44,686 nt of DNA, from the IMG/VR virus record IMGVR_UViG_3300037585_004443, positions 1 to 44,686 of that record, one strand, 5' to 3'. A model generated the notes under the pieces. It ran no database searches. It was not told where the DNA came from and worked only from the letters and a program-made list of their open reading frames with translations. The translations under genes and the position numbers were made by a program. Shown here one piece after another: positions 22,955-44,686 of the stretch (position 1 is the first letter of the stretch; each line of letters opens with the position of its first letter). Source of the stretch: a virus.

Positions 22955-25900
22955 CTAAGTCCCAGAACATTCTCCACAGTGTGTATAACTAGAAGTTGCT
23001 TGACCTGGCTCTTGAGTGTATGAGTTGGTTTGGACATATAGAGTGCCCCAGGCGTTCGTAGCAATTGAACCGCCTGTTCCAGTTGGTCCGGGCATTTGAC
23101 TAGGAAAATCGATACAATAACCCCTATAAGTACCATTTAATAGAGTATTTGCAAAATCAGGATTCCCTGTGGTATACACGTCTGTTGGAGTATTATTTGG
23201 ATATGCCGCGGTGTTATGAGCATCAATTATAGCTCCTGTTTGAGTTACTCCATTTACAGGAACTTCAGATGCATGAAGACCCCATGTTTGATTTGCTGGC
23301 CACCAGTGAGCACCCCAAAGAGCATACCAGAAATATGGATAAGCTTGACTACATCCAGGATGTGGATTGTTTGGACCAATAGGACCATTACCATTAGATG
23401 AGTTTGGTGGGTTAGTATAATCGAACTCAGCGTAATCTGTAGTTTGTGTCACTCCACCAACAACAGTTTGACCAGCACCTTTAGCTGTATATGCAGGGAG
23501 TACGAAAGGGGTGGTATTAGCGGGTCCACCACTCGCAAACGTATGATCCGCACAACATCCAGGATAATAACATGGATCTGTACCTTGATTATAATTATAT
23601 GCTCCAGGATCTTGACAAGGTGGAACGGCAGGGGCGGCACAGTTACTAGTACAGTAAGTTTCTATGCCAGCCTTATTTGTTGCCATATCTGAAGGGCCGT
23701 AAGTACCATAATAAGCAGAGGTATTTGTTAGTGAATTTACAGCGGGGTTCCCAAAATCATTCCCATGAGCTGCGATGCCACCCGGATTAGAGGTACAACT
23801 ACCATTATCACAATATGAACTCCAATCTCTACAACCAGCAACAGTACTGTTGTTAATATCAGATTCACAATACGTTTGAGCGTCTGCGTAACTATAAGTA
23901 GTAGCACCCGCGTCAGTATAACCACCAGTACCACTTGAGTTCAAAACACATCCAATATTTCCAGCAGAAATTACACAATCATATGTATCAGGAATTACTC
24001 CATTATAACAACCACCACTAGGGATAGTTGTAGAAGTTTGACAAGCATTTAGTGCCGCTGTTCCGGTTGTATAACTTATACCATCTACAACAAAATCACC
24101 ACTACCAGCTCCTGGATCAGAACAAGCTCCTAAGCCAGCACCATTACATGTATAACTTTCAAACTCACAACTATTACTAGCCCCATCACAATCCCATTGC
24201 GTCCAGTAACAATCATTAATATTATTAGTAGCGGTTATACAAGCATTCCAAGAACCAGAGCGACATTGTGGACCACCATCACACCAATACGCGTCCATGC
24301 TTTTACAATTGGAGTTCGTTATGCAATCAGTAAAGCCACTATACTGTCCACCTGGTGTTGGTATACATCCTTGGTGTGGATCACAATCGTATTCCGTAGT
24401 ACCATTAGAACAAGCCGCGTGGCAAGTAATTGGATTAGTATATTGACCATTTCCAGTTCCTGGATTAATACAATTCCCATTTCCATCACAATCCCATGAA
24501 GATCGTATATTACACCAAGTATTACAAGCACCAGCTGATGTATAAGCGCCCGTACCACTCATATTCTGCGAGCAAATTCCATTACCATCACAATCCCATG
24601 TTTCTGGAATAACAACACAATCAAGTTCACACTGTGTTAATCCTCCGTTTGTAGAATTATAAAACCCATTTCCTGTTCCAGGATCATAACAAGAACCAGC
24701 ATTACTACCTGACACATCGCAATCCCAAGATGGTATTACAAATGGAGAGCAATGATTTTGACATATACTCATCGAAGCAAACGCTCCGTTACCAGTTCCT
24801 GGATCAAAACAGGTACCATTAATACAATCAAATGATGGTTCTACACAATTATCTACACAATTTTGGAGTGAAGTAAAACCTCCAGGATAACTAGGTGTAC
24901 CTCCAAAAATTTCAACACAATTATAATATGGATCACAATCCCACGTTTGATCATAAGTACAACTACCATCATCAATCGTTGCATTTATGTTATAATTATT
25001 TGCATTTGAATCCGTACAACCTGCACACGAAACATAATCACAAGTACCATCATCTGTAGTAACATTATCACCACAAGGAACAGTTGAGGTTGGATTTATT
25101 GTTGTAGCGCAATCATGGTTACAAGCCAAAGGATCTGTACATCCAGGTATTCCTTCACAACTACCGTTATCAACCGTTGCCAAAGGGTTATAGTTTGAAT
25201 ACATAGGATCCGTGCAGCCTTCGAGTTCATACTCACAACATTCGTTACTACCTGGACCATCACAATTCCCAATTATAATGGCATCATTATTTAAATCAGT
25301 TCCATTATCACAACCCATAAGAGTTGCATCACAAGGACAACCAGCATTAGGATCATAGTTGTTAGCTAAAATATCCATACATCCATACACAGGAGCAGTA
25401 GCACAGCACCCAGTAGTTTGTAAAGTTAAATTAGCAGTTTCACAATCAAGTTCGGATGGCCAAGTTAGCTTTCTACCACCAGGAGCGACCTCTATACATT
25501 CACATGGATCTTCTGTATTTACTATCCAAACTGTATCATAAGTACAACTACCATCGTCTATAGTTGCATTTGGATCTAGGTTATTTGCAGCTGGATCTGT
25601 ACATCCTTCTAAACACCCAACATACACGCATCCAAACATTTCAGTTCCCGCGGCAAAGGTATATCCGCTCGGAGTAGTAATTGAATCTTCTAAAATATCT
25701 CCTTGCACAGAGCAACATGCGTTTGGATCAAAGTTACACGCGCCACTACCATGATTTATAACTAAATTATTAGTTGGATCAGGTGTATCAAAACCACAAG
25801 CATGCCAAGGACTAGATAACCCATCGCAGTTTGTCGGGCACATAGCGTTGTTAGTATCTGCTGTAGCTTGATCAACTACGCACCAACCATCATCTATACA

Positions 25901-27028
25901 CCCAGTAATATAACAACAACTACCATCGTTAAAAGTTGCCTCTGGATCGTAAGTACAAGAATTCACATCAGTACAACCTTCGTATCTATAAACGCAACAA
26001 CTCCATCCCGGATCACTTGGGGAATTAGGTGATATATAACTATTGTCGTAAATATCTGCTCCAGAACAATCATAATCGGATTTTGCATCGTAGTTAATAG
26101 CTGATGGATCCGTACAACCTTGAGCACTAAAACAACCTGATTCATCTAAAATTGTATCTACTGGATTTGCATCCTCTACAACTAAAAGCGTGTGTTGGTT
26201 AAAGTCATCTATTTTTTTAGTACCCCTACCTATATTCCACTTTCCACTATCACACCCATCTTTACTTCTTTCTATATTTATTTTTTTAGGTTCAGATACG
26301 TTATCTGTCCAAAAAATCATATCGTCAACTACATTGATACCAGTTATACTTCTTAGTTTTTGACCCCCACCTGTGTTTCCAAAATTTAAATTTCTATCAC
26401 CAAGAAAAGTGATAGATTGACCTTGTGAATAATTTATGGTTTTATTTAATGTTATTTTTTTATCTACGTCGGAATAATCAACTTCTACAACAGTGGCATC
26501 AGTACCCTCAACCCTCATTCCCCATCTAACTTGATTAGCGTTTCTCGTGATGGAAATAGTAGAAGTAGTAGAAGTACCTTGTTCCTGACAATCCTCTTCA
26601 TAAGTTTGAACGTTAGAGTGAACCTTAAAAATATCAACAAAAACAGCGTGTTCTTTTTCGTCCCAAGGATCGTGTATTTTTTTACTAGTATCAAACTCTA
26701 GTATTCTATCCATCCAAATTCCTTGATCTGGAGAGGCTGTATGAACAAATCTATAAAGCATATTTGTTTGGGGATTTACAATAGCTGCAACATGATAATT
26801 TGCTCCAAAATACTCTTCTCCTCCTTCCCCATTTACATAACTTCGGTGCTGAATAACTTCTGTAACTTTAGTATTACCTAATATATTTTGAGCGGCACCA
26901 ACATCAGAATCTTCTGAGGTAGCGATGCTTATGTTTAAAGCTTCTCTATATAATCCATTTTGAACAATTCTTTCATCGGTGTCTTTATCCATCTTACCAC
27001 CGGTAAAAGTACGTTTTAATTCAGCCAT
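22955..27028 (-). CDS. Tail nozzle N-terminal part fused to a large Cys-rich repeat array
   Basis: A 1357-residue protein. Residues 1-285 look like the start of a marine-phage tail nozzle/stabilisation protein: AELKRTFTGGKMDKDTDERI, GLYREALNI, DVGAAQNILGNTKV, then DDMIFWTDNVSEPKKINIE near 235-250. From residue 304 the nozzle sequence gives way to Cys-rich repeats: about eight GCTDPxAxNY...DDGSC-like units (304-694), about ten WDCDGxGxC...PGTGNG units (695 to about 1129), and a last degenerate GxxDPGAYNY unit. The final 200 residues are Gly/Asn/Thr/aromatic-rich. It ends TAG TAA, in frame with the next gene. Similar Cys repeats occur in surface proteins of Flavobacteriia. An adhesive arm held by disulfides or metal is plausible. 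The N-terminal recognition is from memory of related proteins. Confidence 0.85.
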   Translation of the reverse strand: MAELKRTFTGGKMDKDTDERIVQNGLYREALNISIATSEDSDVGAAQNILGNTKVTEVIQHRSYVNGEGGEEYFGANYHVAAIVNPQTNMLYRFVHTASPDQGIWMDRILEFDTSKKIHDPWDEKEHAVFVDIFKVHSNVQTYEEDCQEQGTSTTSTISITRNANQVRWGMRVEGTDATVVEVDYSDVDKKITLNKTINYSQGQSITFLGDRNLNFGNTGGGQKLRSITGINVVDDMIFWTDNVSEPKKINIERSKDGCDSGKWNIGRGTKKIDDFNQHTLLVVEDANPVDTILDESGCFSAQGCTDPSAINYDAKSDYDCSGADIYDNSYISPNSPSDPGWSCCVYRYEGCTDVNSCTYDPEATFNDGSCCYITGCIDDGWCVVDQATADTNNAMCPTNCDGLSSPWHACGFDTPDPTNNLVINHGSGACNFDPNACCSVQGDILEDSITTPSGYTFAAGTEMFGCVYVGCLEGCTDPAANNLDPNATIDDGSCTYDTVWIVNTEDPCECIEVAPGGRKLTWPSELDCETANLTLQTTGCCATAPVYGCMDILANNYDPNAGCPCDATLMGCDNGTDLNNDAIIIGNCDGPGSNECCEYELEGCTDPMYSNYNPLATVDNGSCEGIPGCTDPLACNHDCATTINPTSTVPCGDNVTTDDGTCDYVSCAGCTDSNANNYNINATIDDGSCTYDQTWDCDPYYNCVEIFGGTPSYPGGFTSLQNCVDNCVEPSFDCINGTCFDPGTGNGAFASMSICQNHCSPFVIPSWDCDVSGSNAGSCYDPGTGNGFYNSTNGGLTQCELDCVVIPETWDCDGNGICSQNMSGTGAYTSAGACNTWCNIRSSWDCDGNGNCINPGTGNGQYTNPITCHAACSNGTTEYDCDPHQGCIPTPGGQYSGFTDCITNSNCKSMDAYWCDGGPQCRSGSWNACITATNNINDCYWTQWDCDGASNSCEFESYTCNGAGLGACSDPGAGSGDFVVDGISYTTGTAALNACQTSTTIPSGGCYNGVIPDTYDCVISAGNIGCVLNSSGTGGYTDAGATTYSYADAQTYCESDINNSTVAGCRDWSSYCDNGSCTSNPGGIAAHGNDFGNPAVNSLTNTSAYYGTYGPSDMATNKAGIETYCTSNCAAPAVPPCQDPGAYNYNQGTDPCYYPGCCADHTFASGGPANTTPFVLPAYTAKGAGQTVVGGVTQTTDYAEFDYTNPPNSSNGNGPIGPNNPHPGCSQAYPYFWYALWGAHWWPANQTWGLHASEVPVNGVTQTGAIIDAHNTAAYPNNTPTDVYTTGNPDFANTLLNGTYRGYCIDFPSQMPGPTGTGGSIATNAWGTLYVQTNSYTQEPGQATSSYTHCGECSGT
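23640..24946 (-). repeat. Protein-level tandem repeat, type B (WDCDGxGxC...PGTGNG), about ten units
   Basis: Within the 1357-residue tail protein, residues about 695-1129 repeat a 30-50 residue unit. The core is [ST]WDCDGNGxC, then a PGTGNGxY-type turn, then C-x3-C (or close variants). Clear copies start at TWDCDPYYNC, SFDCINGTC, SWDCDVSG, TWDCDGNGIC, SWDCDGNGNC and YDCDPHQGC. Later copies grow longer and more diverged. Four Cys per unit suggest two disulfides each. At the DNA level the copies recur as related but non-identical sequence, so the array is old rather than a recent slippage product. I do not recognise a named family. Confidence 0.85.
24947..26119 (-). repeat. Protein-level tandem repeat, type A (GCTDPxAxNY...DDGSC), about eight units
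   Basis: Residues 304-694 of the tail protein contain about eight units beginning GCTDPSAINY, GCTDVNSCTY, GCIDDGWC, GCLEGCTDPAANN, GCMDILANNY, GCTDPMYSNY, GCTDPLACNH and GCTDSNANNY. Most close with [DN][DN]GSC or DDGTC. Several units carry long Cys-rich insertions, so spacing is irregular. The Asp/Asn-rich loops look suited to Ca2+ binding. This unit is widespread in secreted proteins of marine Flavobacteriia, which supports both the host guess and possible transfer from host to phage. Confidence 0.88.
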
Positions 27029-30348: not shown

Positions 30349-31836
30349 CTACTTCATTAACATGAAATTGTTAGCACCTTGTGTAACTAAACATCTTTCT
30401 GATAACATATGGATTTGCATCGCGTCAAGTGCAGATGTAGCAGCACCAACCGAACCAGTAACCCAAGTTTTTAACTTTCTATCATCAGTTTTAGAAGCTC
30501 TATAACGAACGTGTAAGAAAGGACGTTTAAGGTTCTTTCCTAATTGTTGGTCATAAACAGTTGAAGTTCCAGCTGGAATCATAACTCCTCTAATTGCGCC
30601 AGCACTATAAGCAGCGTTAATACCACCTCTAGTAGCTTTGTCGTTTAAGTATCTCATATCTGATTTGTAGAAATCATAAGAACCACGTCTAAAACCAGAG
30701 AAACCTAAATTAAGCGCCATATCTTCTGAGTTGTTAAATACTCCATAAGAAGTACCACCAGCTCCATAAGAATTCATAGAAGCTAACATGTCATCCATTG
30801 CTAACGAAGTAGCTCTATTAACGAACATCATATTTTCTTCAATAGCACCTTGAGAGTCAAATTCAGCTAAAATAGCATCAAATTCAGCTAAATCAGTAGC
30901 CGCGTTAACGCCAGTAATACCAGAAGTTAAATTACCTCTAGCAGTGATAGCAGCGAATAAACCTTCAGTACCAACAGTATTAGCACCATCCGCACCGTAA
31001 ATAAAGTCTTCAACAGCATTTGCACTTGCGTCAAGACGATCGATTTCACCTTCTAACATTGCCATTTCTAAGTAATCAGTAAAACGTGCTCTTGTGTCAG
31101 CCTCAGCTTTTAAGTACCATAAGTAACCTGATCCACCTTCTTCAGAAGTAGTTTCAACCCAACCAACTCTAGCTGTATCAGAACCTGATACTTCGTAGTA
31201 GTCTTTTAATATAATTGGTTTGTTGCTAAAAGTTTTGAAATCTGGTTCATTAGCACCTCTTGATTCTACTGTAGCAGAAGCACCTTTTTGGTTATAACCA
31301 ACACCTTTCGCATATTCAGAACCATAAACTAATATAGTAGTTGCTTGTTCAGCAGTATTTCCTGAAGTTGGTATTGTAGTTGCATCGTAAGTTTTAACAG
31401 TAATATCAGCTCTGTTAGAACCATCAATAGCTGTTACCATACCTTTGTAAACACCAGTAGGTGCAGCTACGATAACTGTATCATTTAATCTAACACCGTG
31501 AGTAGTCATACCAGTTAATGCATAACCATTTCCATCTATATCAGATTGAATAGTTATAACGTGATCAGCATCGATAACACATTTGTAAGATAAGTGTAAA
31601 CGACCTTGCTCAGACCAAACAACTTGATCAGCTTGCATCGCTTCTTCAGCTCCTACTTGTGAAAGAAATCCAGATATAGTCCTAGGACCAAATACCTCTG
31701 CTTCTTTCTCCATAAGATCTGGTAAATATTGTTGAGCCCAACCCATGTCTGTGTTGAAGTCTAGGTAATTTGTAACTAGTGTTTGTTGCACTGGTGCTGG
31801 AACACTATTCAAACTACCCCCTGGAGTAATTGCCAT
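30349..31836 (-). CDS. Major capsid protein
   Basis: A 495-residue protein positioned after portal and scaffold, the usual place for the major capsid protein, and closed by a strong terminator, as expected for the most abundant product. The N-terminus (MAITPGGSLNSV, then LVTNYLDFNTDMGWAQQYLP) has a long N-arm and helix; the phrase ...FLSQVGAEEAMQADQVVWSE follows. A middle beta-rich insertion (about residues 85-170, with VRLNDTVIVAAPTGVYKG) could be a surface domain. MMFVNRATSLAMDDMLASM and a SYDFYKSDMRYLNDKATRGG stretch are typical of major capsid proteins I recall from marine phages. An HK97-like fold is likely but not proven. The ATG follows an A-rich leader (AAAAAAAATAAATT). Confidence 0.88.
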   Translation of the reverse strand: MAITPGGSLNSVPAPVQQTLVTNYLDFNTDMGWAQQYLPDLMEKEAEVFGPRTISGFLSQVGAEEAMQADQVVWSEQGRLHLSYKCVIDADHVITIQSDIDGNGYALTGMTTHGVRLNDTVIVAAPTGVYKGMVTAIDGSNRADITVKTYDATTIPTSGNTAEQATTILVYGSEYAKGVGYNQKGASATVESRGANEPDFKTFSNKPIILKDYYEVSGSDTARVGWVETTSEEGGSGYLWYLKAEADTRARFTDYLEMAMLEGEIDRLDASANAVEDFIYGADGANTVGTEGLFAAITARGNLTSGITGVNAATDLAEFDAILAEFDSQGAIEENMMFVNRATSLAMDDMLASMNSYGAGGTSYGVFNNSEDMALNLGFSGFRRGSYDFYKSDMRYLNDKATRGGINAAYSAGAIRGVMIPAGTSTVYDQQLGKNLKRPFLHVRYRASKTDDRKLKTWVTGSVGAATSALDAMQIHMLSERCLVTQGANNFMLMK

Positions 31837-31856: not shown

Positions 31857-33083
31857 TTATTTTTTATTTTTAATTTTAAATTTGAAATCAGCAGATGTAT
31901 CCCCTAGCACCTTTACTTTCATTCCCCCAATATTTAAACTAGGATCTAAAGTTTGCCTAGGTGTCATGTTTACGTTTTTGGCTTCTTCAACACTTGTTTT
32001 TAAAGCGTCGGCTTTGCCTTGTTCGTAAAAATGATTCGCAATTTGATCTGGATTCATAGCTGTATATAATCCCTTGTGGTATCCTGATGGATCCGTCATA
32101 TTCATATCTTTATCAAGAAACTTTCCTATAAAGTTATTTATATCACTTTGAGATTTTTTAACTTTCTGTGTATCACTAACATTAACTCTAAATTTCTTAT
32201 CTCCGACATTGTATTCAAAACCTTTGAATTTGTCTCCAAAAAATCTATTTGTTTTGTTTAAAAACTTATTAGTAATATCCTCTTCATGCTGCGACTTTTG
32301 CTGTATTTCGCTGTAGAAATTAATAGCTTCTTGTTGCTCACTTGTGAGTTTCGATCCGCTTTTAATTTCTTCATAGTATTTAGACTTTTGCCCGTCTAAG
32401 TGGCTTTTAGCGTTGGCAACTTGCTCTTTTAACGCTAGTTTTTTTCTTTTAATTTCTCTATCGTCATCTGTATCTTCGTCGAAAGAGAATTGATCTTCCA
32501 TAAGGAAGTTAATTTCTTCGTTATTTAAATGAGGTTTTGTTTGCTTGTAGTATTCGTGTAATAAATCTTGACTATCTAATTCACTGTAATCTTGGTTAAG
32601 TTTAACATAATCATTTAAATCCCCTCCAGTTTCTTCCATAAAGTTTACTAACTTTTGAATATTCTCAGGAAGAGGTTCACCGGTTTCCATTGATTCTTTA
32701 ATAGCTTCTTCAGCTACTTCAGCAACTTCCTCTGCTTTTGTTTCTTCAGTAATTTCTTCTAATACTGGAGTTTCTTGTGCTTGAACTTCCGGTTGTACTT
32801 CTTCTTGTTCTTGTGGGGCATTGGCATCTTCATTGACTCCAACCACTCCCTCGTCGTTAGTGTTATCTTCTTTAACTTCATTTTCTTCTGGTTTTTCTGG
32901 TTTATTTAAATCAACCTTAGTTATAGTTTCTTTTTCTATAATAGGTTTCATTTTCATTTTTTCTTTAACCTTTGTAACATTACCTTTAGTCTCGTTACCT
33001 GTAGGTTGTTTTTCTTTTTGTTCTTTTACTTTCAATGAACCAGTTTCGTTATCCACGACTGGTTTTTCTTTTTTCTTTGCCAT
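31857..33083 (-). CDS. Scaffold-like acidic protein
   Basis: A 408-residue protein. Its first 150 residues are Lys/Glu/Gln-rich and disordered (for example NAPQEQEEVQPEVQAQETP, then TEETKAEEVAEVAEEAIKE). The middle (about 150-320) is charged and helical, containing the acidic FDEDTDDDREIKRKKLAL. The C-terminal part has a GGMKVKVLGDTSADF ending and a Lys-rich tail (FKIKNKK). Low complexity, acidity and position between portal and major capsid protein fit an internal scaffold that leads capsid assembly and then leaves. No protease motif is visible in it. Scaffold identity is inferred from composition and context. Confidence 0.78.
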   Translation of the reverse strand: MAKKKEKPVVDNETGSLKVKEQKEKQPTGNETKGNVTKVKEKMKMKPIIEKETITKVDLNKPEKPEENEVKEDNTNDEGVVGVNEDANAPQEQEEVQPEVQAQETPVLEEITEETKAEEVAEVAEEAIKESMETGEPLPENIQKLVNFMEETGGDLNDYVKLNQDYSELDSQDLLHEYYKQTKPHLNNEEINFLMEDQFSFDEDTDDDREIKRKKLALKEQVANAKSHLDGQKSKYYEEIKSGSKLTSEQQEAINFYSEIQQKSQHEEDITNKFLNKTNRFFGDKFKGFEYNVGDKKFRVNVSDTQKVKKSQSDINNFIGKFLDKDMNMTDPSGYHKGLYTAMNPDQIANHFYEQGKADALKTSVEEAKNVNMTPRQTLDPSLNIGGMKVKVLGDTSADFKFKIKNKK

Positions 33084-33110: not shown

Positions 33111-35516
33111 TTACAATCCTAAATTAAATCCACCTAATGTATCATTTGCAGATTCAAAATTTTGGGATGGTTTTTGATTTTCCTTCTGATCAATCATTGC
33201 TGATTGTTGTGTTGCTTGCATTCTTGTTCTATCGTCTTTACGATTTTCAGTTAATAATTGTGTAGCTGATTTAGTTTTAGCTTCTAATTGTTTTAATTGC
33301 ATTTCATATTGAAATTCTAATTGCATTAATCTTTCTTTGATAGAAGCTTCTTTATCTAACACACTATTCTTACCAGTTGTTTTTATACCTTCAAGTTTAA
33401 TTTCATTTTCCAAAGCAGCTTTTCCTTTATCGATTTCAGCTTTAGCCCCTGCTGCCGCTACTTTTTCTTGCGATCTACCCTGGGCTTCGGTTTGTTGTAA
33501 CTGATTCGCTTGATCTTCATCTGCTTTTTTCTTTCTTCTAAGTTTAAGCATTTGATTTGCTAACTTCACATTTCTTATTTGACGTAAATCAATAGCATCT
33601 TCTAGGTTAATTCCTTGCTGTCCTAACGCCGCTTGTATATTGTTTTCTAATAATTGCTTATCTTCTTCGTCAGGTTCTAGTTCTAAAAATATTCCAAAAT
33701 CATAAAGATGTAAATTAGACATTTCTTCTAATGTAGCTATATTATGAGCGCCTATAGCCTCAATAAAAGCTTTTTTAGTTGGTGAATATTCTATAATATC
33801 AGAAATTCTAAGTGATAATTGCTCAGCAACATCAACAGTTAAAAACATACCTGACTGCAATATATGTCTTGTAGCTGTATTAGAATTTGCTGCGGCCATT
33901 TTTTGTACGCCTACTAAAGATCTTTCAGCTGGAGTTGAACCATCACTTGCTTCATTTAATCCGGTTACGTCTCTTATCATTTGTAAGTAATAATTATATG
34001 TACCTATTAATTGCTGCATCTTATTACTACCAGCTCCTGATTGTATTTCTTGAATTGGAATTTTACCAGGATTTTGATCACCATCTATAGTCATAGATCT
34101 ACCAACTATACTACCAGTTTGGAAGAACATGTTTAAAGCTTCTTGGGGATTATAGTTTGTTCCGTTACCTAAATCAACTTCAGCTAAACCATCTACATCT
34201 AAGAAAATACCATCTGGAGTCATTCGAGATAATACTTGTTGTATTTTTAGGTGAGTCAATTGGATCATGTCAGCAAAACCAGTTATTCTACCTACAAGTG
34301 ATTCTATACGTCCCTCGTACATTCTAGGAGCAACTATACTATAATTCATTTTAACTTTAGTATAATCACTTTTAGTACGCATCATATTATTAGCCCTCTC
34401 CCATTTTATAAGTTTATTTGCACCTAATATATACGCTCCTTCATATAAACATTCTACCGATTTAGATAGTCTTTCATATTTACCTTCTAAACTTTTTGGA
34501 GGATTAAAACTATCATCTTTTTTAACAGCTTTTTCTCCACCTGTTGAGTTTTCTTTTATTTTATAAACCTCATTCATGTAGGTTTTATAGTTAAAATACA
34601 ACACGTCTACTTTGTTGTTGTCTGAATCAGCATTCCTAGAATTAGCACCGTAGTAATTAGCATTAGTACCAGAACTGCTATTAGATATTTCTTCTAAAGC
34701 TTCATGATCTAAATATGGAAATTGTTTTTTAAGTTCATTAATAGGAATAGATTTAACCTCTCCAACATAATATATATCTTCGAAATAAGGTGATTCCGTA
34801 TAAGAGTAAACAAGATTAGCTGGATCAACATAATCAATTACAACACCTTCAGCAGTGTTGAACGAAGTTTTAACCGCACCAATCCCTAACACTGTTAAAT
34901 CATGATAAAATCTTCTTTTTATTAAATCATACCTACTTCCTTGCATTAAAGTTTCTATAGCTTGCTCTTCAGCTATTTCAACCTCTTGCTTATAGTTAAG
35001 TTGCATATGTAATTTAAATTCTTCATCGCTTGTTGGTAAGGTTTCTTTACCAGTATCTACAACTGTGATCTGGAAAGTTTCTTCGCAAAAGTCATAAAAA
35101 TCTTTCATTTTCATGTCTTTCTCAATATTCTGCATATATTCTGTTCTCTTAAGAACGCCATAAGGATCTTGAGAATAGGCTTTTATTTTGTATAATCTTT
35201 CAGCTATACCATTAACTACAATGTCTACAAATTTAGGTATTATCGGAACAGGTGTCCAATCTAAATTTAAATAGGACAAATCACCGTTTATAGATAACTC
35301 ATCCTTATATTTTTGTATAGATTGCTCGCCTCTCGCGTACAAACGTAATTTATGAAATTTAGATATGTTGTTACGAAATCTATCACTACTATGTGATTTT
35401 GTGAACCATTCGTATTGAATTGCTTTTGCAACTTTTAATCCATAGTCATGACTCATTTTCTCTAAGTCACTAACTACTTGGCTAGGAAAATGTCTATTTA
35501 TAATTGATTCAGCCAT
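33111..35516 (-). CDS. Portal protein
   Basis: An 801-residue protein directly after the large terminase, starting two bases after its stop. It has helical N-terminal sequence (VVSDLEKMSHDYGLKVAKAI), a central region rich in Tyr (for example ...DPANLVYSYTESPYFEDIYY, about residues 230-250), and a clip/stem-like GRITGFADMIQLTHLKIQQV. It ends in a long Gln/Lys/Ala coiled coil (about residues 670-780), probably the barrel reaching into the head. Order terminase-portal-scaffold-capsid is the classic one for tailed phages. I recognise the family from marine phages but give no symbol. Portal assignment is well supported by order and layout; no single residue motif proves it. Confidence 0.85.
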   Translation of the reverse strand: MAESIINRHFPSQVVSDLEKMSHDYGLKVAKAIQYEWFTKSHSSDRFRNNISKFHKLRLYARGEQSIQKYKDELSINGDLSYLNLDWTPVPIIPKFVDIVVNGIAERLYKIKAYSQDPYGVLKRTEYMQNIEKDMKMKDFYDFCEETFQITVVDTGKETLPTSDEEFKLHMQLNYKQEVEIAEEQAIETLMQGSRYDLIKRRFYHDLTVLGIGAVKTSFNTAEGVVIDYVDPANLVYSYTESPYFEDIYYVGEVKSIPINELKKQFPYLDHEALEEISNSSSGTNANYYGANSRNADSDNNKVDVLYFNYKTYMNEVYKIKENSTGGEKAVKKDDSFNPPKSLEGKYERLSKSVECLYEGAYILGANKLIKWERANNMMRTKSDYTKVKMNYSIVAPRMYEGRIESLVGRITGFADMIQLTHLKIQQVLSRMTPDGIFLDVDGLAEVDLGNGTNYNPQEALNMFFQTGSIVGRSMTIDGDQNPGKIPIQEIQSGAGSNKMQQLIGTYNYYLQMIRDVTGLNEASDGSTPAERSLVGVQKMAAANSNTATRHILQSGMFLTVDVAEQLSLRISDIIEYSPTKKAFIEAIGAHNIATLEEMSNLHLYDFGIFLELEPDEEDKQLLENNIQAALGQQGINLEDAIDLRQIRNVKLANQMLKLRRKKKADEDQANQLQQTEAQGRSQEKVAAAGAKAEIDKGKAALENEIKLEGIKTTGKNSVLDKEASIKERLMQLEFQYEMQLKQLEAKTKSATQLLTENRKDDRTRMQATQQSAMIDQKENQKPSQNFESANDTLGGFNLGL

Positions 35517-35518
35517 TT

Positions 35519-37735
35519 TTAATTTTTAATTATTTTACTCATATTACCTCGTTGCTCATATTTAGAAAAGTTTATGTTCACTGGTGATCTTTCTATTTTA
35601 GGATTTGGAGCATAAAGATGTCTATTATTAGCCATTATAGCTAAACCAGAACTTATAGATGCATCATGTTTTGTTCTTTTATTTATATCAAATCTAGTCC
35701 AATCATTTAGCAAAGCATTAAAATATAAATCTCCAAACGTACCATCTTGCTTCATACCAACATGATCTTGTATATACATTTCAATTGCAGCAGCATGAGC
35801 TTGTTTTATATCTTCACTTGAATTAGGTATTCCACCAACTTCTTTTTCTGCGACAGATAATTTATTCCATTTTTTATCAGGTCTATTCATACTAAACCCT
35901 CTATATCCTCTTCGCCTTAAATAGTACAGCAATCTAGGTTTGTTATTCTCTGCAAGTATTGGCATACCATAAAACACTATTGCCATTAAAACGTCTTCAA
36001 AAAACATTTCAGCTGTAGGTGGTCTAGATAAGTATTCTAAAAAGAAGCTGTTCGCGGGAGCGTCCTCCATACTAAACTTGGTTAAGCCGTGTAATGCTCC
36101 TTTAGAACCTTCTCCATCTACAGTACCTGATATATCATAAGAGTCACAACCAAATGCTCCCATGTGTTCATTACCAGGATATTTTATACCGTTTTTAAGT
36201 ACCACTCTATTTTGTAACTGCTGGGGTGGAACCCAACTAACTTTAAATCTACCCTTTGGATCTGGATAGAATATTACTTGCGTATCTTTAACACCACTCA
36301 CCCACTGAAAATTACCTTGAGTAATACCTAATGTTCTAGCCATTTCCTCGTTGTAATCTATTTGTTCGTATATTTTAATTAAATTAAATATACTTCCTTT
36401 CGCCTCATCTCTAAAGGCATGCTCTGTAGTTTTTGGAAACTGACGATAAAACTCATTTAAAGCATCTTGATCTGTCTTTAGTCCATCAGCTTCATTTTGC
36501 CAATGTTCTATAATACCGTAATCTATTAATTCACCGTCTGGTCCGAGGACATCATCGTCTGGATTATCAAAAACTGGATATCCGTATTCGTCAATGAAGC
36601 CTTCGTAGTTCCACTCCATTGGAATAAAAAGAGAATATAAGCCAGATTTTGTCTGTCCATTACGATTTCTTTTTGTGACGTCTGAAGCATTGTATAGTTT
36701 TTTAAAGTTTTCCCCACCTTTATCTAAAGCATTTGAAGTACTACCCATCATACATTTACCTACTACCCTGCTACCTAATCGTAAACATGTTTTCGTAACT
36801 CTCCAATTGTTTAATATGTTATCGGGTCTTTCCCATTTCCCACTTTCATCATGTACTAGTAAAGCTAGCTTCTCACCATCATAACTATTATCACCTGTAT
36901 TCTTCCAATCAATAGTTGTATCTAAACCTTTTAAATCCTCTAACTTTTCGTTAGCTGTTATTTTTTTCCTTGTAAACTTACTAGCTGGTACTCTATATGC
37001 TAATTCAGTTTTAGGTCTATCCATACCATCTTGAATCGGTTTAAAGAAAAATGGATAATTTATACTAATTGGTACAACTTTGTCTGTAAACATCTTCTTT
37101 GCATCAGAACCAGTTTTAGAGAGTATACCGTATCTAGCATCGCTATCTAAAGTAGCTAAGTTAACCGTTTCCGCAGATGACATAAAAGAAAATCCAGAAC
37201 GTCTATTTTTTAAATAACTCATTCCGTAACATCTTCTATCAGCCTTACAGGCTTCCCAAAATATAAAGAACAATCTGTTTGCTTCCCTATAATCAGGTGC
37301 TCCAACATCGATTTTACTCCATTGAAGATACATATAATGCGTTCCTACTATATAAGTTGGTTTATCTTTATTCATAAACCAAAACCCTTCTTCTCTTCTT
37401 TTAAACTCCTCGTCTATATAATCAAACCACTGTTCCTTTTGTTCGTCTGGATAATTTCTCCAATCAAATATATTTTTTAAACGTGCTAATTCCTTAGGTT
37501 GTTCAAATTTTACCCATTTGTTTTTGGGGTGCACGTACACTCCTTTTGGTTCCAACGGCAAGCCAATTCGCAAGTTTTGGATTTCAAGTATTTCACCAAT
37601 TTTACCCGTTTTTGATATAACGACAATATCATGTTCTTTATCATATCCATATTTCCATTTTTTACCTTTATTAAGACGACTAATAGTCGTTCTTTTAATT
37701 GGTTCTATTGTTTTAACTAAATTTTGCTCGTACAT
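35519..37735 (-). CDS. Large terminase subunit (packaging ATPase-nuclease)
   Basis: A 738-residue DNA-packaging motor. The ATPase domain shows a Walker A-like KNRRSGFS (residues 176-183), with the unusual Arg-Arg-Ser found in some large terminases instead of GKT. A Walker B LALLVHDES (about 290-298) and a coupling motif GSTSNALDKGG (about 331-341) follow. The nuclease domain has an acidic GCDSYDISG (Asp531, Asp534) and, near the end, KHDASISSGLA (Asp691), which would bind the catalytic metals. Its start overlaps the upstream stop by one base (TAATG), so translation is coupled to the small-terminase candidate. It would cut and pump genome into the prohead through the portal. High confidence. 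Confidence 0.94.
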   Translation of the reverse strand: MYEQNLVKTIEPIKRTTISRLNKGKKWKYGYDKEHDIVVISKTGKIGEILEIQNLRIGLPLEPKGVYVHPKNKWVKFEQPKELARLKNIFDWRNYPDEQKEQWFDYIDEEFKRREEGFWFMNKDKPTYIVGTHYMYLQWSKIDVGAPDYREANRLFFIFWEACKADRRCYGMSYLKNRRSGFSFMSSAETVNLATLDSDARYGILSKTGSDAKKMFTDKVVPISINYPFFFKPIQDGMDRPKTELAYRVPASKFTRKKITANEKLEDLKGLDTTIDWKNTGDNSYDGEKLALLVHDESGKWERPDNILNNWRVTKTCLRLGSRVVGKCMMGSTSNALDKGGENFKKLYNASDVTKRNRNGQTKSGLYSLFIPMEWNYEGFIDEYGYPVFDNPDDDVLGPDGELIDYGIIEHWQNEADGLKTDQDALNEFYRQFPKTTEHAFRDEAKGSIFNLIKIYEQIDYNEEMARTLGITQGNFQWVSGVKDTQVIFYPDPKGRFKVSWVPPQQLQNRVVLKNGIKYPGNEHMGAFGCDSYDISGTVDGEGSKGALHGLTKFSMEDAPANSFFLEYLSRPPTAEMFFEDVLMAIVFYGMPILAENNKPRLLYYLRRRGYRGFSMNRPDKKWNKLSVAEKEVGGIPNSSEDIKQAHAAAIEMYIQDHVGMKQDGTFGDLYFNALLNDWTRFDINKRTKHDASISSGLAIMANNRHLYAPNPKIERSPVNINFSKYEQRGNMSKIIKN

Positions 37736-38010
37736 TACTTAGATCTACCTTCTGCGAATCCTTTAAAGACTTTTTCCTTTGTCTTTTCAGGTGTTTTACC
37801 CTCAAGCAAGTTTGCTTCTTCTTGAATTCTGTTAAGTATTTCGAATGCGTCAAATATAGCTAGTTTTTTAGTAGCTGCGGCATTCTTAAGTCTATCAGCG
37901 GTTATATCATCTCCAGAATCTACAATAGCTTCCTTCGCAACTTTAATAAGCTCTTCAACAGCTCTGTGCCCAGCTTGGATTATATTCTTCTTCGTCTCCT
38001 TGATATTCAT
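37735..38010 (-). CDS. Small terminase subunit candidate
   Basis: A 91-residue helical protein. I chose the start MNIKETKKNIIQAGHRAVEE at 38010, because the sequence conserved in related marine phages begins there; an upstream in-frame Met at 38058 adds 16 residues that look like coding shadow. The text GDDITADRLKNAAATKKLAIFDAFEILNRI is a helix-turn-helix-like, conserved stretch. It overlaps the tandem GroES-like gene by 56 bases and its TAA overlaps the large terminase ATG by one base. Position directly before the large terminase and the compact helical build suit a small terminase, which recognises packaging sites. This role is inferred; it could be another small assembly factor. Confidence 0.6.
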   Translation of the reverse strand: MNIKETKKNIIQAGHRAVEELIKVAKEAIVDSGDDITADRLKNAAATKKLAIFDAFEILNRIQEEANLLEGKTPEKTKEKVFKGFAEGRSK

Positions 38011-38545
38011 ATTTGATTGTAATAAAATTAGATAAAACTCTGTATAATCTTTCTCCATCGATTATAAACTCATATTCACTACTTGGTCTAAAACCAACTA
38101 GATCGCCAACCTTAACTGTACCGTCTGAATATTTAACAATACCTTGTAAAGGTTTTTCTAAATCCACATTTAGTGGATTTTGTGCTTTTAAAGGTATCAC
38201 AAAACAATATCCTTTTGGAACTATCCATTTATCATCTCTTTTATATAAAAAGATTTGATCTTGATTTATAAGATAAGTAGATTCATCAAAAAAACTTCTA
38301 CTGTTTTTTTCAACACCTTTTACATCATTCCATCTTCTAAAAACATTATGATGTACTACAACGGTATCTCCTACCTCTATATCTGTATCGCCTATAATTG
38401 GTTTTGATAAAACAATAGCTTCTCTATTTATATATTGATGATTAAATATATCGGTGTTTAAGATCAACTCTCCACCATCAACCTTTTTCTTATTGTTATA
38501 TCTTTCTCCTTTTGGCGTTACAACGAAGTTGTAAACACTCTTCAT
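37955..38545 (-). CDS. Tandem double GroES-like (Cpn20-like) protein
   Basis: A 196-residue protein that reads as two GroES-like domains in a row. First half: VYNFVVTPKGERY, then GGELILN (compare the GroES mobile loop GGIVLTG), then INREAIVLS, then DIEVGDTVVVHHN, and INQDQIFLYKR at the end. Second half: GYCFVIPL, then LQGIVKYSDG, then TVKVGDLVGF, then IIDGERLYRVL and ITIKYEY, matching GroES VKVGDxVxF...IDxExxLIM...ILAIVE. Two GroES domains in one chain are known in chloroplast Cpn20. The gene starts where the upstream stop overlaps (TAATG). It might cap GroEL or serve another role. The second mobile loop lacks the GG-hydrophobic pattern. Fold is by eye, moderately sure. Confidence 0.68.
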   Translation of the reverse strand: MKSVYNFVVTPKGERYNNKKKVDGGELILNTDIFNHQYINREAIVLSKPIIGDTDIEVGDTVVVHHNVFRRWNDVKGVEKNSRSFFDESTYLINQDQIFLYKRDDKWIVPKGYCFVIPLKAQNPLNVDLEKPLQGIVKYSDGTVKVGDLVGFRPSSEYEFIIDGERLYRVLSNFITIKYEYQGDEEEYNPSWAQSC

Positions 38546-39868: not shown

Positions 39869-40255
39869 TTATTTTTTTACTTTTTCTAGTGATCTACCAC
39901 CAAAATAGGCACCGATCACGGTTATTAATACTAATTGAAGTAAATCCACCCATGATGATTTTACTTCGAAATTTATCGCACCAGCATCAATAAATATTAA
40001 TAGCATGGTGCATACTATTAAAAAAATCACTACTAATGGTCTAACGTTTTTGCTAAGCCATGAATCCGATTTTAAATCTGCTTCCCATCTGCTTGTGATG
40101 TTTTTCTCCATCTCAGCTTCGTGGTTAGCTATAATTTCTTTTATTTTTCTTTCTGCCTCAAGCTTTTCTTCCTTAGATGTGTGTAGACTATCTATTACTC
40201 CACCTACACCTTTTACTAATTCAGCAGCTCCTCCAGAAAACAAGTTACCTAACAT
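39869..40255 (-). CDS. Holin-like membrane protein
   Basis: A 128-residue protein. Residues 1-25 are Gly/Ala-rich and amphipathic (MLGNLFSGGAAELVKGVGG). Residues 26-65 are a charged helix. Then come two membrane helices: about 72-90 (RPLVVIFLIVCTMLLIFID) and about 102-120 (WVDLLQLVLITVIGAYFGG). A basic end (RSLEKVKK) follows. The phrase SDSWLSKNVRPLVV before the first helix and GAYFGGRSLEK after the second recall the three-transmembrane holin family (Holin_3TMs) found in phages and gene-transfer agents. It would make the holes in the inner membrane that let lysis begin. No endolysin is visible nearby; the holin call is good on layout. Confidence 0.75.
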   Translation of the reverse strand: MLGNLFSGGAAELVKGVGGVIDSLHTSKEEKLEAERKIKEIIANHEAEMEKNITSRWEADLKSDSWLSKNVRPLVVIFLIVCTMLLIFIDAGAINFEVKSSWVDLLQLVLITVIGAYFGGRSLEKVKK

Positions 40256-40258
40256 ATA

Positions 40259-40519
40259 TTATTTTTTTGGTTGTTTAAATAAATCTGGATTGGGTTGCCA
40301 ATTACCAGGATTTTTAATACCATGTACTCTTTTTTTAGGACCGTCCTTCATAACTTTAGGCATTTTGATATTAGTGCTTACAGCCTTCTTATCTTCCTCA
40401 TACTCTAATTGTGCATCATTTAATTGACCATGAGCAGTTGTCGTAGATTTTTTAACTTTTTTCTTTGGATCTGTTTTAAAAGGAAAACCTCCTTTCGTGT
40501 ATTTCATTCCGTATCCCAT
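40259..40519 (-). CDS. Small basic protein with degenerate N-terminal tag
   Basis: An 86-residue Lys-rich protein. I chose the ATG at 40519 because it lies one base after the upstream TAA (TAACATG). An in-frame start 48 bases upstream would run inside the previous gene. The N-terminus MGYGMKYTKGGFPFKTDPKK resembles a degraded form of the FKLKSGN...FK tag found on nearby proteins. The centre contains HGQLNDAQLEYEEDKKAVS and the end NPGNWQPNPDLFKQPKK. High positive charge suggests DNA or capsid-interior contact. No known family. Confidence 0.66.
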   Translation of the reverse strand: MGYGMKYTKGGFPFKTDPKKKVKKSTTTAHGQLNDAQLEYEEDKKAVSTNIKMPKVMKDGPKKRVHGIKNPGNWQPNPDLFKQPKK

Positions 40520-40520
40520 G

Positions 40521-40919
40521 TTACTTATTTTCTCTATGTTTATCCCAAATCGCTTTACCTTTAGCATCTAAATCAGAACGTTTTACTGGTGGCTCATATC
40601 CAGGTTTTCCAGGAGTACCAGGTGCATCTGGATCAACTTTTTTCTTTCCAACGTTTTTCTTTGCTATTTTTGAAAACTTTTGAGAATTAGGCGTTGATCC
40701 TTTTCTTCTAACTGTTTGTAGTTTTTCTGGTCCTTCAGTACGCGCAGCTGCTTCATTATGAGTTTCCTCTTTAATGTTTTTCTTAGTTGCTCTAGGTCCA
40801 ACTGGTTTTTTATACGGAGGTTTCATTTTTAAATCACTTCTTACTTTTGTGTATTTTTTCTCACTTCCTAGGCTCTTAAACTTAACCCCTGAATTCCCAC
40901 GCTTCATATTATATCCCAT
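40521..40919 (-). CDS. Basic, partly collagen-like small tagged protein
   Basis: A 132-residue, strongly basic protein. I chose the ATG at 40919, after an A-rich leader (AAAAATAAAAATT) and twelve bases from the upstream stop; an ATG nine codons upstream lies in the previous gene's coding end. The N-terminus MGYNMKRGNSGVKFKSLGSE aligns with the FKLxSGNxPxFKxMGSSP tag (SGV...FK and LGS conserved). The middle is Lys/Arg-rich, with a short PGTPGKPGYEPP stretch near 100-112. Disordered and basic, it may bind packaged DNA. It belongs to the tagged group at 40-42 kb. Role is inference. Confidence 0.72.
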   Translation of the reverse strand: MGYNMKRGNSGVKFKSLGSEKKYTKVRSDLKMKPPYKKPVGPRATKKNIKEETHNEAAARTEGPEKLQTVRRKGSTPNSQKFSKIAKKNVGKKKVDPDAPGTPGKPGYEPPVKRSDLDAKGKAIWDKHRENK

Positions 40920-40930
40920 AATTTTTATTT

Positions 40931-41305
40931 TTAATGTTTTTCCCAAGGAAAATCTCTAGTACCCTCTGGTAACCATTCTCCGTTATAATTAATTTTTCCG
41001 TTTTTTCTATCATACTTTTCTCCCATCCAAGTTATACTATCATCATCATACGATAATTTACCAACTTTCATATCAACAATATGTTTCATTTCGTGCATTA
41101 GTATAGCTCTCTCTTCTTCACTTCCAGGAGTAACAGATTCGTCTAGAAATATACTACCATCTATATTCGCCTCAGCTTTAACACCTCCTTCTAATTTTTT
41201 TCTAATAACAGCTGTACCAGGAATAGAAGCATCGTCTTTGTTAAAGCGATTCTTAGCAGTATCGTAATTCATCTTTCTATTTTCACTTCCTAGTTTAAAT
41301 GTCAT
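40931..41305 (-). CDS. Small HExxH metallopeptidase-like protein
   Basis: A 124-residue protein carrying HEMKH at residues 71-75 in the context AILMHEMKHIVDMKVGKL, the two-His/one-Glu motif that binds zinc and activates water in gluzincin/metzincin-type peptidases. Downstream Asp/Glu residues (Asp78, or those in YDDD) could be the third ligand. The N-terminus MTFKLGSEN resembles the FKLxSGN tag on neighbours. A substrate cannot be named; a maturation protease acting on tagged or scaffold proteins, or one acting in the host after ejection, are both possible. It sits between two tagged basic genes. The motif is firm; activity is not shown. Confidence 0.78.
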   Translation of the reverse strand: MTFKLGSENRKMNYDTAKNRFNKDDASIPGTAVIRKKLEGGVKAEANIDGSIFLDESVTPGSEEERAILMHEMKHIVDMKVGKLSYDDDSITWMGEKYDRKNGKINYNGEWLPEGTRDFPWEKH

Positions 41306-41307
41306 AT

Positions 41308-42051
41308 TTAATATTTTGGTGCACCTTTATGATCCCATTTTCCAGTTTTTTCAAAAATACCTTGTTGTCTTTTCTTCTCTTTAACATATTGGTCGTGGGA
41401 GTAGTTTTTGTATTGCTTACCACGGTTTTTATAATCAGGATCTTCTTCTACTTTAATTTTTTTTTCTGGATCAGTTGCAATATTAGTTATTTCACTAGGT
41501 TTGTAAGTATCTTCTTTGGTATCACCTTTTGTATTTTCATCTTCTGGATCGTACTCAACATTTTCGTTTTGTGAATTGTGATATTTATCTAATCTAGCGC
41601 GTCTTTCTTCATCTTCGAGTTTTTGAGCTTCTCTTTGTGCTTGTCTTTCATCTGGTCTTTTACCATCTAAAAATATATATTCTAAGTTATCAGCTATCGT
41701 TTTCCTTTTTTGTTTTCTTAAAGCTAGTCGTTTTTCAGGAGTATCTGCGGCCGCTATTGTTTTTGCTTTAACAAGTTTTTTATCAGATCGTCTTTGTTGA
41801 ATATTATCTACTATCTCATTCTTTTTATCTTTCAAGAATTTTTTTACTTTTTTACTAACTGATTTTTTCTTTGGTGTTGGTGGGGTAGCTTTTTCAAGAT
41901 TAGGTTCTTTAGTTTCATTATCCAACTTTTCAACCTCTTTAGTTGGCATTTTGCTTATCACATCATCACCAAATATTCCTTTTTTTACTGGCGAACTACC
42001 CATTTCTTTAAATTTTAACGGTCCATTACCTGATCTTAGTTTAAATCCCAT
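41308..42051 (-). CDS. Basic coiled-coil protein with N-terminal FKLRSGN tag
   Basis: A 247-residue, highly charged protein. It starts MGFKLRSGNGPLKFKEMGSS, nearly identical to the 266-residue protein at the other end of the window. After this tag come Lys-rich, helical segments (KKVKKFLKDKKNEIVD) and a long Arg/Glu/Gln helix (about residues 115-160, ERQAQREAQKLEDEERRARL). It ends in Lys/Asp/Gly-rich sequence (KTGKWDHKGAPKY). Charge pattern and disorder suggest a head-interior DNA-associated protein. It leads the cluster of four small genes at 40.3-42.1 kb. Function is inferred. Confidence 0.8.
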   Translation of the reverse strand: MGFKLRSGNGPLKFKEMGSSPVKKGIFGDDVISKMPTKEVEKLDNETKEPNLEKATPPTPKKKSVSKKVKKFLKDKKNEIVDNIQQRRSDKKLVKAKTIAAADTPEKRLALRKQKRKTIADNLEYIFLDGKRPDERQAQREAQKLEDEERRARLDKYHNSQNENVEYDPEDENTKGDTKEDTYKPSEITNIATDPEKKIKVEEDPDYKNRGKQYKNYSHDQYVKEKKRQQGIFEKTGKWDHKGAPKY

Positions 42052-43409: not shown

Positions 43410-43667
43410 TTAATCTACTAGAACTACGTCACCATCACGAATGACCCGGTAAAGTACATCTTTCCATGATATATCGTGTCCAGCATGTTTATCGTAATAT
43501 ATCGTATCACCATCTTTTAGTCCTTCCACAAGATTTCCACACGATATTATTTTTGCTTTTATATAACGGTTGTCTACATCCGTATCATCCGTCATTATAA
43601 GACCAGCAACCGTTTTAGGTTCTGTCTTTATTCTATCTACTATAATATATCTATTAATTGCTTTCAT
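43410..43667 (-). CDS. groES: GroES-like co-chaperonin
   Basis: An 85-residue co-chaperonin (usual GroES about 97). It contains RYIIVDRIK, AGLIMTDD (mobile loop with LIM as the hydrophobic tripeptide that contacts GroEL), KAKIISCGN, LKDGDTIYYDKHAGHDISW and VLYRVIRDGDVVLV, matching GroES strands in order. It caps the GroEL ring and closes the folding chamber. Its ATG lies 14 bases inside the end of the GroEL gene, so both are made together. Gene order is GroEL then GroES, the reverse of bacterial operons. Phage T4 uses its own Gp31 for capsid folding; a similar late role for capsid or tail proteins is likely here. Confidence 0.88.
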   Translation of the reverse strand: MKAINRYIIVDRIKTEPKTVAGLIMTDDTDVDNRYIKAKIISCGNLVEGLKDGDTIYYDKHAGHDISWKDVLYRVIRDGDVVLVD

Positions 43668-44686
43668 TCATTCTCATATTTGAAATTACACAATCTGCAG
43701 ATATAATTGTTGATACTACACTCACTGCATTTTTGAGCGCCGATTTTGTAACCAAAACCGGATCTATAATACCGGCTGAGATCATTATAGCATTTTCTCC
43801 TGTCACCACATCTATACCTTGTCCTTCTGGTTCGCTGTAATTTATATAATCTATACCAGCATTGTTAAGTACAGTATAAAAAGGAGCTTGAATAGCTTTT
43901 AGTAGTATCTCTTCACCCACCGCTTTAGCGGAGATTTTCTGAGATGCGTTTAGTAGTGCCACGCCTCCTCCTGGTACTATCCCTTCTTTTAATGCTGCTT
44001 TTGTAGCGTAAATAGCGTCTTCTATTCTATCTTTCTTTTCTTTGAGTTCAACCTTGGAATCAGCACCTACTTTTACCATTCCAACACTTCCCGATAGCAT
44101 AGCTAATCTTTCTCTATGTTTCTTTTGTATAAACGGGTTTTTATCCCATTTATCTATAGTTTTTTTAATACTCTCGATTCTCTCTTCCATCTCGTCCTCT
44201 GGAGTCTCTATGGTAAGAACTGTATTTTTGTCATCTGTAATTGCAGTATAAGCTTCACCTAAACAATCTACATCGATTAAATCAAGATCATCACCTAATT
44301 GCTCGTTAATTACTTTAGCTCCAACAAGGAAAGCAAGATCTGCAATAGTATCTTCTTTGGTTGGCCCAAAGCCTGGTAAGTCAACTATATTAACTTTTAT
44401 ATTACCTTTCACCTTATTCATAAGAAGAGCAGCTTTAACTTGTTGGTCAACTGGAGCGACTATAAGTAATGGACGCTTAGTTTTTATAACATGCTCTAAT
44501 ACTGTTTGTATTTTCCTTATATTTGGTATTTCTGAAGATACTATTAATACTAATGGGTTATCAAGCTCAGCTATCTGCTTGTCCTTATCAGTAACGAAAT
44601 GTGGGGATGTGAGTCCTGAGTCGATTTGAACACCGTCAACAACTTCAACGTATGTCTCTTCAGTTGGAGACTCTTCCATTAATACC
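43654..44686 (-). CDS. groEL: GroEL chaperonin, C-terminal two thirds (cut by window edge)
   Basis: About 343 codons are visible; the frame stays open to the right edge, so the first third (equatorial N-terminus, roughly residues 1-180) lies outside. Seen in order: the apical start VDGVQIDSGLTSPHF, LLIVAPVDQQVKAAL, VDLPGFGPTKEDTIADLAFL, then KEKKDRIEDAIYATKAALKE and GIVPGGGVALL. The Asp in RIEDAIYATKAA matches the ATP-hydrolysis Asp398 of E. coli GroEL. It ends NMRMNESN, without a GGM-repeat tail. Phage-encoded GroEL is known but uncommon. It overlaps groES by 14 bases. It would fold phage proteins within the double ring (or a smaller ring). Strong call. Confidence 0.93.
   Translation of the reverse strand, partial: VLMEESPTEETYVEVVDGVQIDSGLTSPHFVTDKDKQIAELDNPLVLIVSSEIPNIRKIQTVLEHVIKTKRPLLIVAPVDQQVKAALLMNKVKGNIKVNIVDLPGFGPTKEDTIADLAFLVGAKVINEQLGDDLDLIDVDCLGEAYTAITDDKNTVLTIETPEDEMEERIESIKKTIDKWDKNPFIQKKHRERLAMLSGSVGMVKVGADSKVELKEKKDRIEDAIYATKAALKEGIVPGGGVALLNASQKISAKAVGEEILLKAIQAPFYTVLNNAGIDYINYSEPEGQGIDVVTGENAIMISAGIIDPVLVTKSALKNAVSVVSTIISADCVISNMRMNESN

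Follow-up and report, generated by a model that had tools for sequence, protein, structure and literature searches.

Two proteins encoded 40 kb apart in the genome of an uncultured virus start with almost the same peptide, which raises the question of what this peptide does there. The window analysed was the whole IMG/VR record IMGVR_UViG_3300037585_004443 (44,686 bases). Its late genes lie on the minus strand in the order GroEL (partial), GroES, small genes, holin, GroES-like protein, terminase, portal protein, a 408-aa protein, probable major capsid protein, and tail and other large proteins. A model that had read the DNA and its translations (hereafter, the sequence-only reading) had taken the peptide for an address label, comparable to the capsid-targeting sequence (CTS) of phage T4. 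The features discussed are listed in Table 1.

Table 1. Features of the window, by position; nucleotide positions of the tags are given in brackets.
Feature	Position	Strand	Remarks
266-aa basic tagged protein	274-1074	(-)	gp3-gp1 slot; tag = residues 1-22 (1009-1074); begins MGTPFKLKSGNKPKFKNMGSSP
3070-aa protein	2202-11414	(-)	no PHROG match; no tag
1357-aa Cys-rich protein	22955-27028	(-)	
Probable major capsid protein	30349-31836	(-)	matches PHROG 13704 (virion structural protein); candidate receptor of both the tag and the scaffold tail
Scaffold-position protein, 408 aa	31857-33083	(-)	between portal and capsid genes
Scaffold tail	31860-31928	(-)	GGMKVKVLGDTSADFKFKIKNKK (...DFKFKIKNKK); tag-like core FK[MLFIV][KR]
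Portal protein	33111-35516	(-)	landmark; alternative candidate receptor
Terminase large subunit	35519-37735	(-)	lineage marker
GroEL, GroES and second GroES-like protein	37955-38545 and 43410-44679	(-)	second GroES-like protein (PHROG 13932) directly upstream of terminase
Holin	39869-40255		PHROG 3427
86-aa protein	40259-40519	(-)	ATG at 40519; possible variant tag
132-aa protein	40521-40919	(-)	ATG at 40919; variant tag (40860-40919)
HExxH (minigluzincin-like) protein	40931-41305	(-)	tag = residues 1-9 (41279-41305)
247-aa charged tagged protein	41308-42051	(-)	gp146-holin slot; tag = residues 1-21 (41989-42051); begins MGFKLRSGNGPLKFKEMGSSP

Tagged proteins of the window

The N-termini of the 266-aa and 247-aa proteins were identical at 17 of 23 residues (pairwise E = 1e-5), and no further meaningful similarity was found beyond the N-terminus in the pairwise comparison. 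The near-identical peptide on two otherwise unlike proteins had been described correctly by the sequence-only reading, coordinates included. The 266-aa protein also contained a Gly/Ala-rich hydrophobic stretch in its C-terminal third.

Weaker forms of the tag had been assigned to two further proteins and, tentatively, to a third. The HExxH protein, which begins MTFKLGSEN, was found in all 12 long lineage records compared, and M1, F3 and K4 were at least 90% conserved among 58 relatives, with a stretch behind them that was variable in length and sequence. The 132-aa protein starts with MGYNMKRGNSGVKFKSLGSE; a relative in another genome (G007) begins MAFKMKGFPKQEV, and the window copy is therefore read as a degraded or variant tag. 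The 86-aa protein, proposed as perhaps tagged, carries MGYGMKYTKGGFPFKTDP, which matches the subtype FK(M/L)KYKN.AFPFK with other examples outside the window (MPFKMKYKNEAFPFKGES, MPFKLKYKNTAFPFKTS, MAFKLKHTGRAFPFKTHK), and its tag is still classed as possible.

Phage lineage and host

At least 600 relatives of the window terminase were present in IMG/VR, the best 80 of which had 75-89% identity. When the annotated phage collection was searched with this terminase, no member of the lineage was found; the nearest annotated phages were one uncultured genome (64%) and isolates of Flavobacterium (Elemovirus, 46%), Cellulophaga (38-39%) and Tenacibaculum (32%). The tag-bearing lineage probably consists of marine, podovirus-like phages that infect Bacteroidota. 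The titles of metagenome-assembled genomes to which lineage contigs had been assigned also named mainly Bacteroidota, which is weak evidence for the host because of binning errors.

Distribution of the tag

IMG/VR was scanned for the core MxFKMKG using the query ATGNNNTTYAARATGAARGG, in which codon 2 was left free. At least 145 matches were obtained, representing at least 119 new loci. Among the matches listed, the ATG started an ORF of at least 45 aa in 131 of 145 cases, and the free second residue was Ala in 106 of these 131 ORF starts. Genes homologous to those of the window phage were present at 103 of the 119 loci among the matches listed, and the tag therefore belongs to this phage lineage. 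A permuted control (ATGNNNAARTTYATGAARGG), run against the whole IMG/VR collection, gave 111 matches with a single lineage locus; the ORF starts numbered 11, among which one protein was represented by several copies. For genome comparison, 12 long lineage records including the window were used. The strict tag M.FK[ML]K was found at the start of 27 ORFs in these records, and none was found for each of 11 permutations of the motif. A chance origin of the tag was rejected on the basis of these near-zero permuted controls.

The 138 unique tagged proteins among the matches listed were compared behind residue 22 and fell into 69 clusters, of which 52 were single. When the matches listed were pooled with other loci and the genomes, 174 tagged proteins formed 90 clusters, with a median length of 118 aa and a net charge of approximately +6 per 100 residues. 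Because the clusters were built with BLAST (E ≤ 1e-3 or 1e-4) from fast-evolving, partly low-complexity proteins, the true number of unrelated families is probably lower, and a few entries are chance matches. The collection of phage proteins starting with the peptide, as proposed by the sequence-only reading, thus yielded about 70-90 clusters of protein bodies within one lineage.

No matches were obtained when the tagged proteins were used as queries, each of them evolving too fast, or when the consensus tag was used in tblastn. The small proteins of the isolates checked carried no tag. Pfam and PHROG matches of the tagged proteins were mostly to families of unknown function; the recognisable bodies included the HExxH peptidase, DUF6321, DUF5872, and a family with the motif RGLW.NIHAKRKR. 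Text searches of an open-access library, which leaves out most subscription journals and bioRxiv preprints, gave no account of the tag.

Sequence features of the tag

The core of the tag was [F/Y]-K-[M/L]-[K/R/G]-[G/S] following M-A or M-G, typically MAFKMKG, with MAFKMKG[FS][PS] as the commonest form. Longer subtypes recurred on different proteins, including FKMKG(F/S)P..., ...RNFGIG.SP.K, FKLKS.N.P.FK.MGSSP, and the FK(M/L)KYKN.AFPFK form mentioned above; the third of these is the type of the window and was also found in L152. A second element, S[PS][LAMIF][KQ] (e.g., SP[LAM][KQ]), was located behind the core in 25% of tagged proteins compared with 3% of other genes.

When the HExxH protein was modelled with AlphaFold2, nearly all of residues 1-25 had pLDDT values below 50, and most of the remainder was predicted with confidence. 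In this protein, the sole tagged fold modelled, the tag is predicted to be disordered and to lie outside the fold. The sequence-only reading had named a folded domain containing the peptide, shared by full-length homologues, as the finding that would speak against it; the model disfavours such a domain.

Three additional observations were made on related peptides. A 370-aa protein encoded next to the HExxH gene in G002 (L223:6871-7983) had a tag-like end, SRFKVKGYKMSGFGNKASKK, which is possibly a C-terminal tag; clear N-terminal tags were not seen in that genome. Several tagged proteins had another short motif in common, DGR..SS[AP][FLY]Q, which some HExxH proteins carried at their C-terminus (L107, L116, L154, L157, L158, G008 (L205), and G010 (L208)). 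Further, repeats of the AMK[LM]K type formed long internal arrays in several tagged proteins (L155, L170, L193, and L195) and resemble multiplied pieces of the tag core.

Genomic location of tagged genes

With a relaxed motif, 49 candidate tags were detected in the 12 long records, 48 of them on the late strand (Fisher p = 2e-7); two or three look like chance occurrences (e.g., MGEQAGIDWYKMG, MGYKMKTCLISG), and one is the scaffold-position protein. Most tags were held by three slots, namely the position before GroEL, the gp146-holin slot, and the gp3-gp1 slot, and the two strongest tags of the window occupy the latter two. The proteins found in the gp3-gp1 slot across genomes were tagged and mostly non-homologous, and some records had none there. 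Up to nine tagged proteins were encoded in one genome (G010). Many tagged genes adjoined groEL/groES, and the conserved late genes alongside carried no tag.

For two of the tagged families, untagged relatives were identified in unrelated phages. The DUF6321 protein of L082 matched 501 records, mostly from cyanophages and pelagiphages, and many of these aligned only from about residue 14. Similarly, a 52-aa protein of G009 (MAFKMKSPLKG-KRGLWDNIHAKRKR...) was matched from residue 9-12 onward by proteins of T7-like cyanophages, pelagiphages, and roseophages. The untagged relatives were encoded between the scaffolding (capsid assembly) and capsid genes in pelagiphages HTVC142P and Eistla, roseophage CRP-804, and cyanophage S-TIP37; S-RIP2 showed a similar layout with unnamed genes, and in cyanomyoviruses DUF6321 formed the end of a large protein. 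These bodies therefore exist without the tag, and in the head module of several phages.

Scaffold-position protein

The 408-aa protein is predicted to have an acidic disordered N-terminal region, a helical core, and a basic disordered tail. Together with the position of its gene, these predicted features suggest a scaffold or core protein. PDB sequence searches gave only chance-level matches for the scaffold profile and no match for the capsid profile, and a fold search with the scaffold model returned nothing below E = 2. Homologues of the 408-aa protein were annotated as 'structural protein', and it may therefore stay in the virion.

Of 61 scaffold homologues, 52 (85%) had the motif FK[MLFIV][KR] within their last 20 residues, compared with a mean of 2.1 and a maximum of 8 for shuffled tails, a count that overstates the evidence because the homologues are related and not independent. 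Anywhere in the sequence, the motif was found in 93% of the homologues. Among 23 lineage families, it was frequent only in the HExxH protein (as the tag) and in the scaffold-position protein, and all others had it at 9% or less. When 60 conserved families were ranked by the match of their termini to the tag profile, the HExxH family came first and the scaffold second. Some scaffolds with no tail motif had an N-terminal one (MSETVKQEGDFKLKSK in G011, MSEIVKQEGDFKLKKKK in L163), and a distant homologue from Elemovirus begins MFKMKLEG. No obvious covariation was seen between tag and scaffold tail. The link between the two is regarded as suggestive.

Proposed function in head cargo loading

The explanation that we consider probable is that the peptide serves as an N-terminal tag for loading cargo into the phage head, working like the T4 CTS and possibly imitating the scaffold tail. 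The tag core at a terminus of the scaffold-position protein and the untagged relatives encoded between scaffold and capsid genes provide new support for a head destination. Tagged genes are located alongside head and lysis genes, and their products would be made late. The flexible tag would then bind the site normally taken by the scaffold tail, either at the inner capsid lattice or within the scaffold core, as is suggested by the core motif common to both. Its Phe/Met residues alternate with Lys, a pattern that would be suitable for an additional beta-strand at the edge of a sheet, and the inner capsid surface would be the simplest partner. The closing prohead would enclose the tagged proteins, which would leave with the DNA at infection. 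Since the tag would suffice for loading, the protein behind it could be swapped, and unrelated tagged proteins do occupy the same slots in related phages. As a counterpoint, no tag is present on the phage's large proteins of virion type. The annotation of a distant isolate, phi38:1, fits the head-loading reading: three of its small proteins, encoded upstream of terminase, are named 'structural protein' by similarity to another phage.

The address label suggested initially thus holds in part: a short motif occurs on many different, mostly basic proteins of the late strand, selection appears to act on the peptide, the tag lies outside the predicted HExxH fold, and it is grafted onto bodies that are untagged elsewhere. 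If loading is its function, sequence would be enough to list what uncultured marine phages bring into their hosts in the way of proteins, a set otherwise invisible without virion proteomics. It would also mean that head loading can be run by just a few residues that recur on dozens of different proteins, and the tag would offer a compact signal with which proteins could be packaged in phage shells. The resemblance to the scaffold turns the entry of internal proteins into a simple question of binding and competition.

Comparison with known loading systems

In T4, the CTS is carried by the internal proteins IPI, IPII, and IPIII, and 10 residues are enough to load foreign proteins into the head (PMC9026906). 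The tag is likewise a short N-terminal peptide on small, otherwise divergent proteins of one phage, encoded by late head-associated genes. It differs from the CTS in its apparently unrelated sequence, the motif [FY]K[ML][KRG] being specific to this lineage, in its spread over about 90 clusters with as many as nine tagged proteins in a genome, and in its resemblance to the terminus of the scaffold-position protein. T4-type cleavage sites ([LI].E) within residues 1-30 were found in 15% of tagged genes compared with 24% of other genes, and PHROGs gave no prohead protease for those head-module proteins that were scanned. A T4-type cleaved propeptide was rejected, and the tag is not a CTS in the strict sense, because (L/I)xE sites were not enriched near it. 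Of the T4-like targeting originally suggested, a head destination is supported by the head-module relatives and the core at the scaffold end.

In P22, cargo has been loaded by engineered fusion to the scaffold (PMC9962691). As proposed for the tag, the cargo of such fusions enters the procapsid by carrying the capsid-binding part of the scaffold. The C/Nu3 proteins of lambda and UL26/UL26.5 of herpesviruses are natural cases in which proteases share scaffold sequence, a whole domain being shared by means of nested genes. Unlike the engineered P22 fusions and these nested genes, the tag would be a short peptide reused on many separate genes. Encapsulin cargo-loading peptides are short terminal motifs, usually C-terminal and of the GSL type, that dock cargo inside an HK97-fold shell. 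The tag is similarly a short linear motif at a protein end, but it is N-terminal and its shell would be the phage head. The C-terminal GSL-type motif was present in 0% of the 174 tagged proteins, and an encapsulin-type peptide was rejected on this ground. The cargo proteins in the virion of crassvirus phi-crAss001 are large (60-277 kDa), and the text of that paper names neither a scaffold nor a loading signal (PMC10172136). As proposed for the tagged lineage, phi-crAss001 is a tailed phage of Bacteroidota with cargo proteins in its virion.

Alternative explanations

The tag might instead direct proteins to another lineage-specific partner in the infected cell, such as the phage GroEL/GroES, a replication or packaging site, or the membrane, so that they never enter the virion. 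The many tagged genes beside groEL/groES would agree with this, but tagged genes are also found far from groEL, in the gp3-gp1 slot. In addition, no further family except the scaffold-position protein has the core motif, and the head modules of other phages contain untagged relatives. We regard this explanation as unlikely.

Attachment to the portal, the tail, or the outer capsid surface, which would make the tagged proteins minor structural or decoration proteins and not enclosed cargo, would agree with late expression, basic charge, and the likeness of the tag to the scaffold terminus, and also with the structural annotation of the small phi38:1 proteins. However, the core that the tag has in common with the scaffold-position protein points inside, and genomes with as many as nine different, interchangeable tagged proteins suggest stored cargo more than fixed structural roles. 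Such attachment is, in our estimate, quite improbable.

A further explanation, which we consider very improbable, is that the conserved start is a nucleic-acid element, either a translation-initiation enhancer or a recombination site for gene shuffling, and that the peptide has no function. GCA was favoured at codon 2 of the tag, an exception to its background codon use, and short repeated starts could aid gene exchange. However, the Phe and Lys codons of the tag were close to the codon usage of the lineage and all four Gly codons were used, and therefore the peptide is what is kept. The motif was also preserved when shifted by up to nine extra residues before it (12 genomes), K/R and M/L exchanges were tolerated, and neighbouring late genes had no such motif. 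It is extremely unlikely that the tagged proteins are a single diverged family with the tag as its most conserved piece: fast-evolving basic proteins can lose detectable similarity and the unrelated families may be fewer than the clusters, but distinct families were recognised behind the tag, two of them with untagged relatives elsewhere, and in the AlphaFold model of the HExxH protein the tag is not part of the fold.

Head cargo loading by the tag may be extended to a natural modular loading code, in which the capsid-binding end of the scaffold has been copied onto any head cargo and the genes are freely swappable. The tag would then also admit the zinc peptidase encoded in every long record compared, a possible maturation protease or injected effector. 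We put forward this extension only tentatively, and it is rather doubtful as a whole.

Other genes of the window

The window encodes its own GroEL and GroES and a second GroES-like protein (Table 1). By eye, the 3070-aa protein contained GHEVLHAIV, a stretch of HExxH type, and VLDFDDTLA, which is HAD-like, together with paired Cys/His motifs at the C-terminus; in appearance it is a large multidomain protein that is part of the virion or injected. In addition, repeated units of the type GCTDP.A.NY...A..DDGSC were present in the 1357-aa Cys-rich protein.
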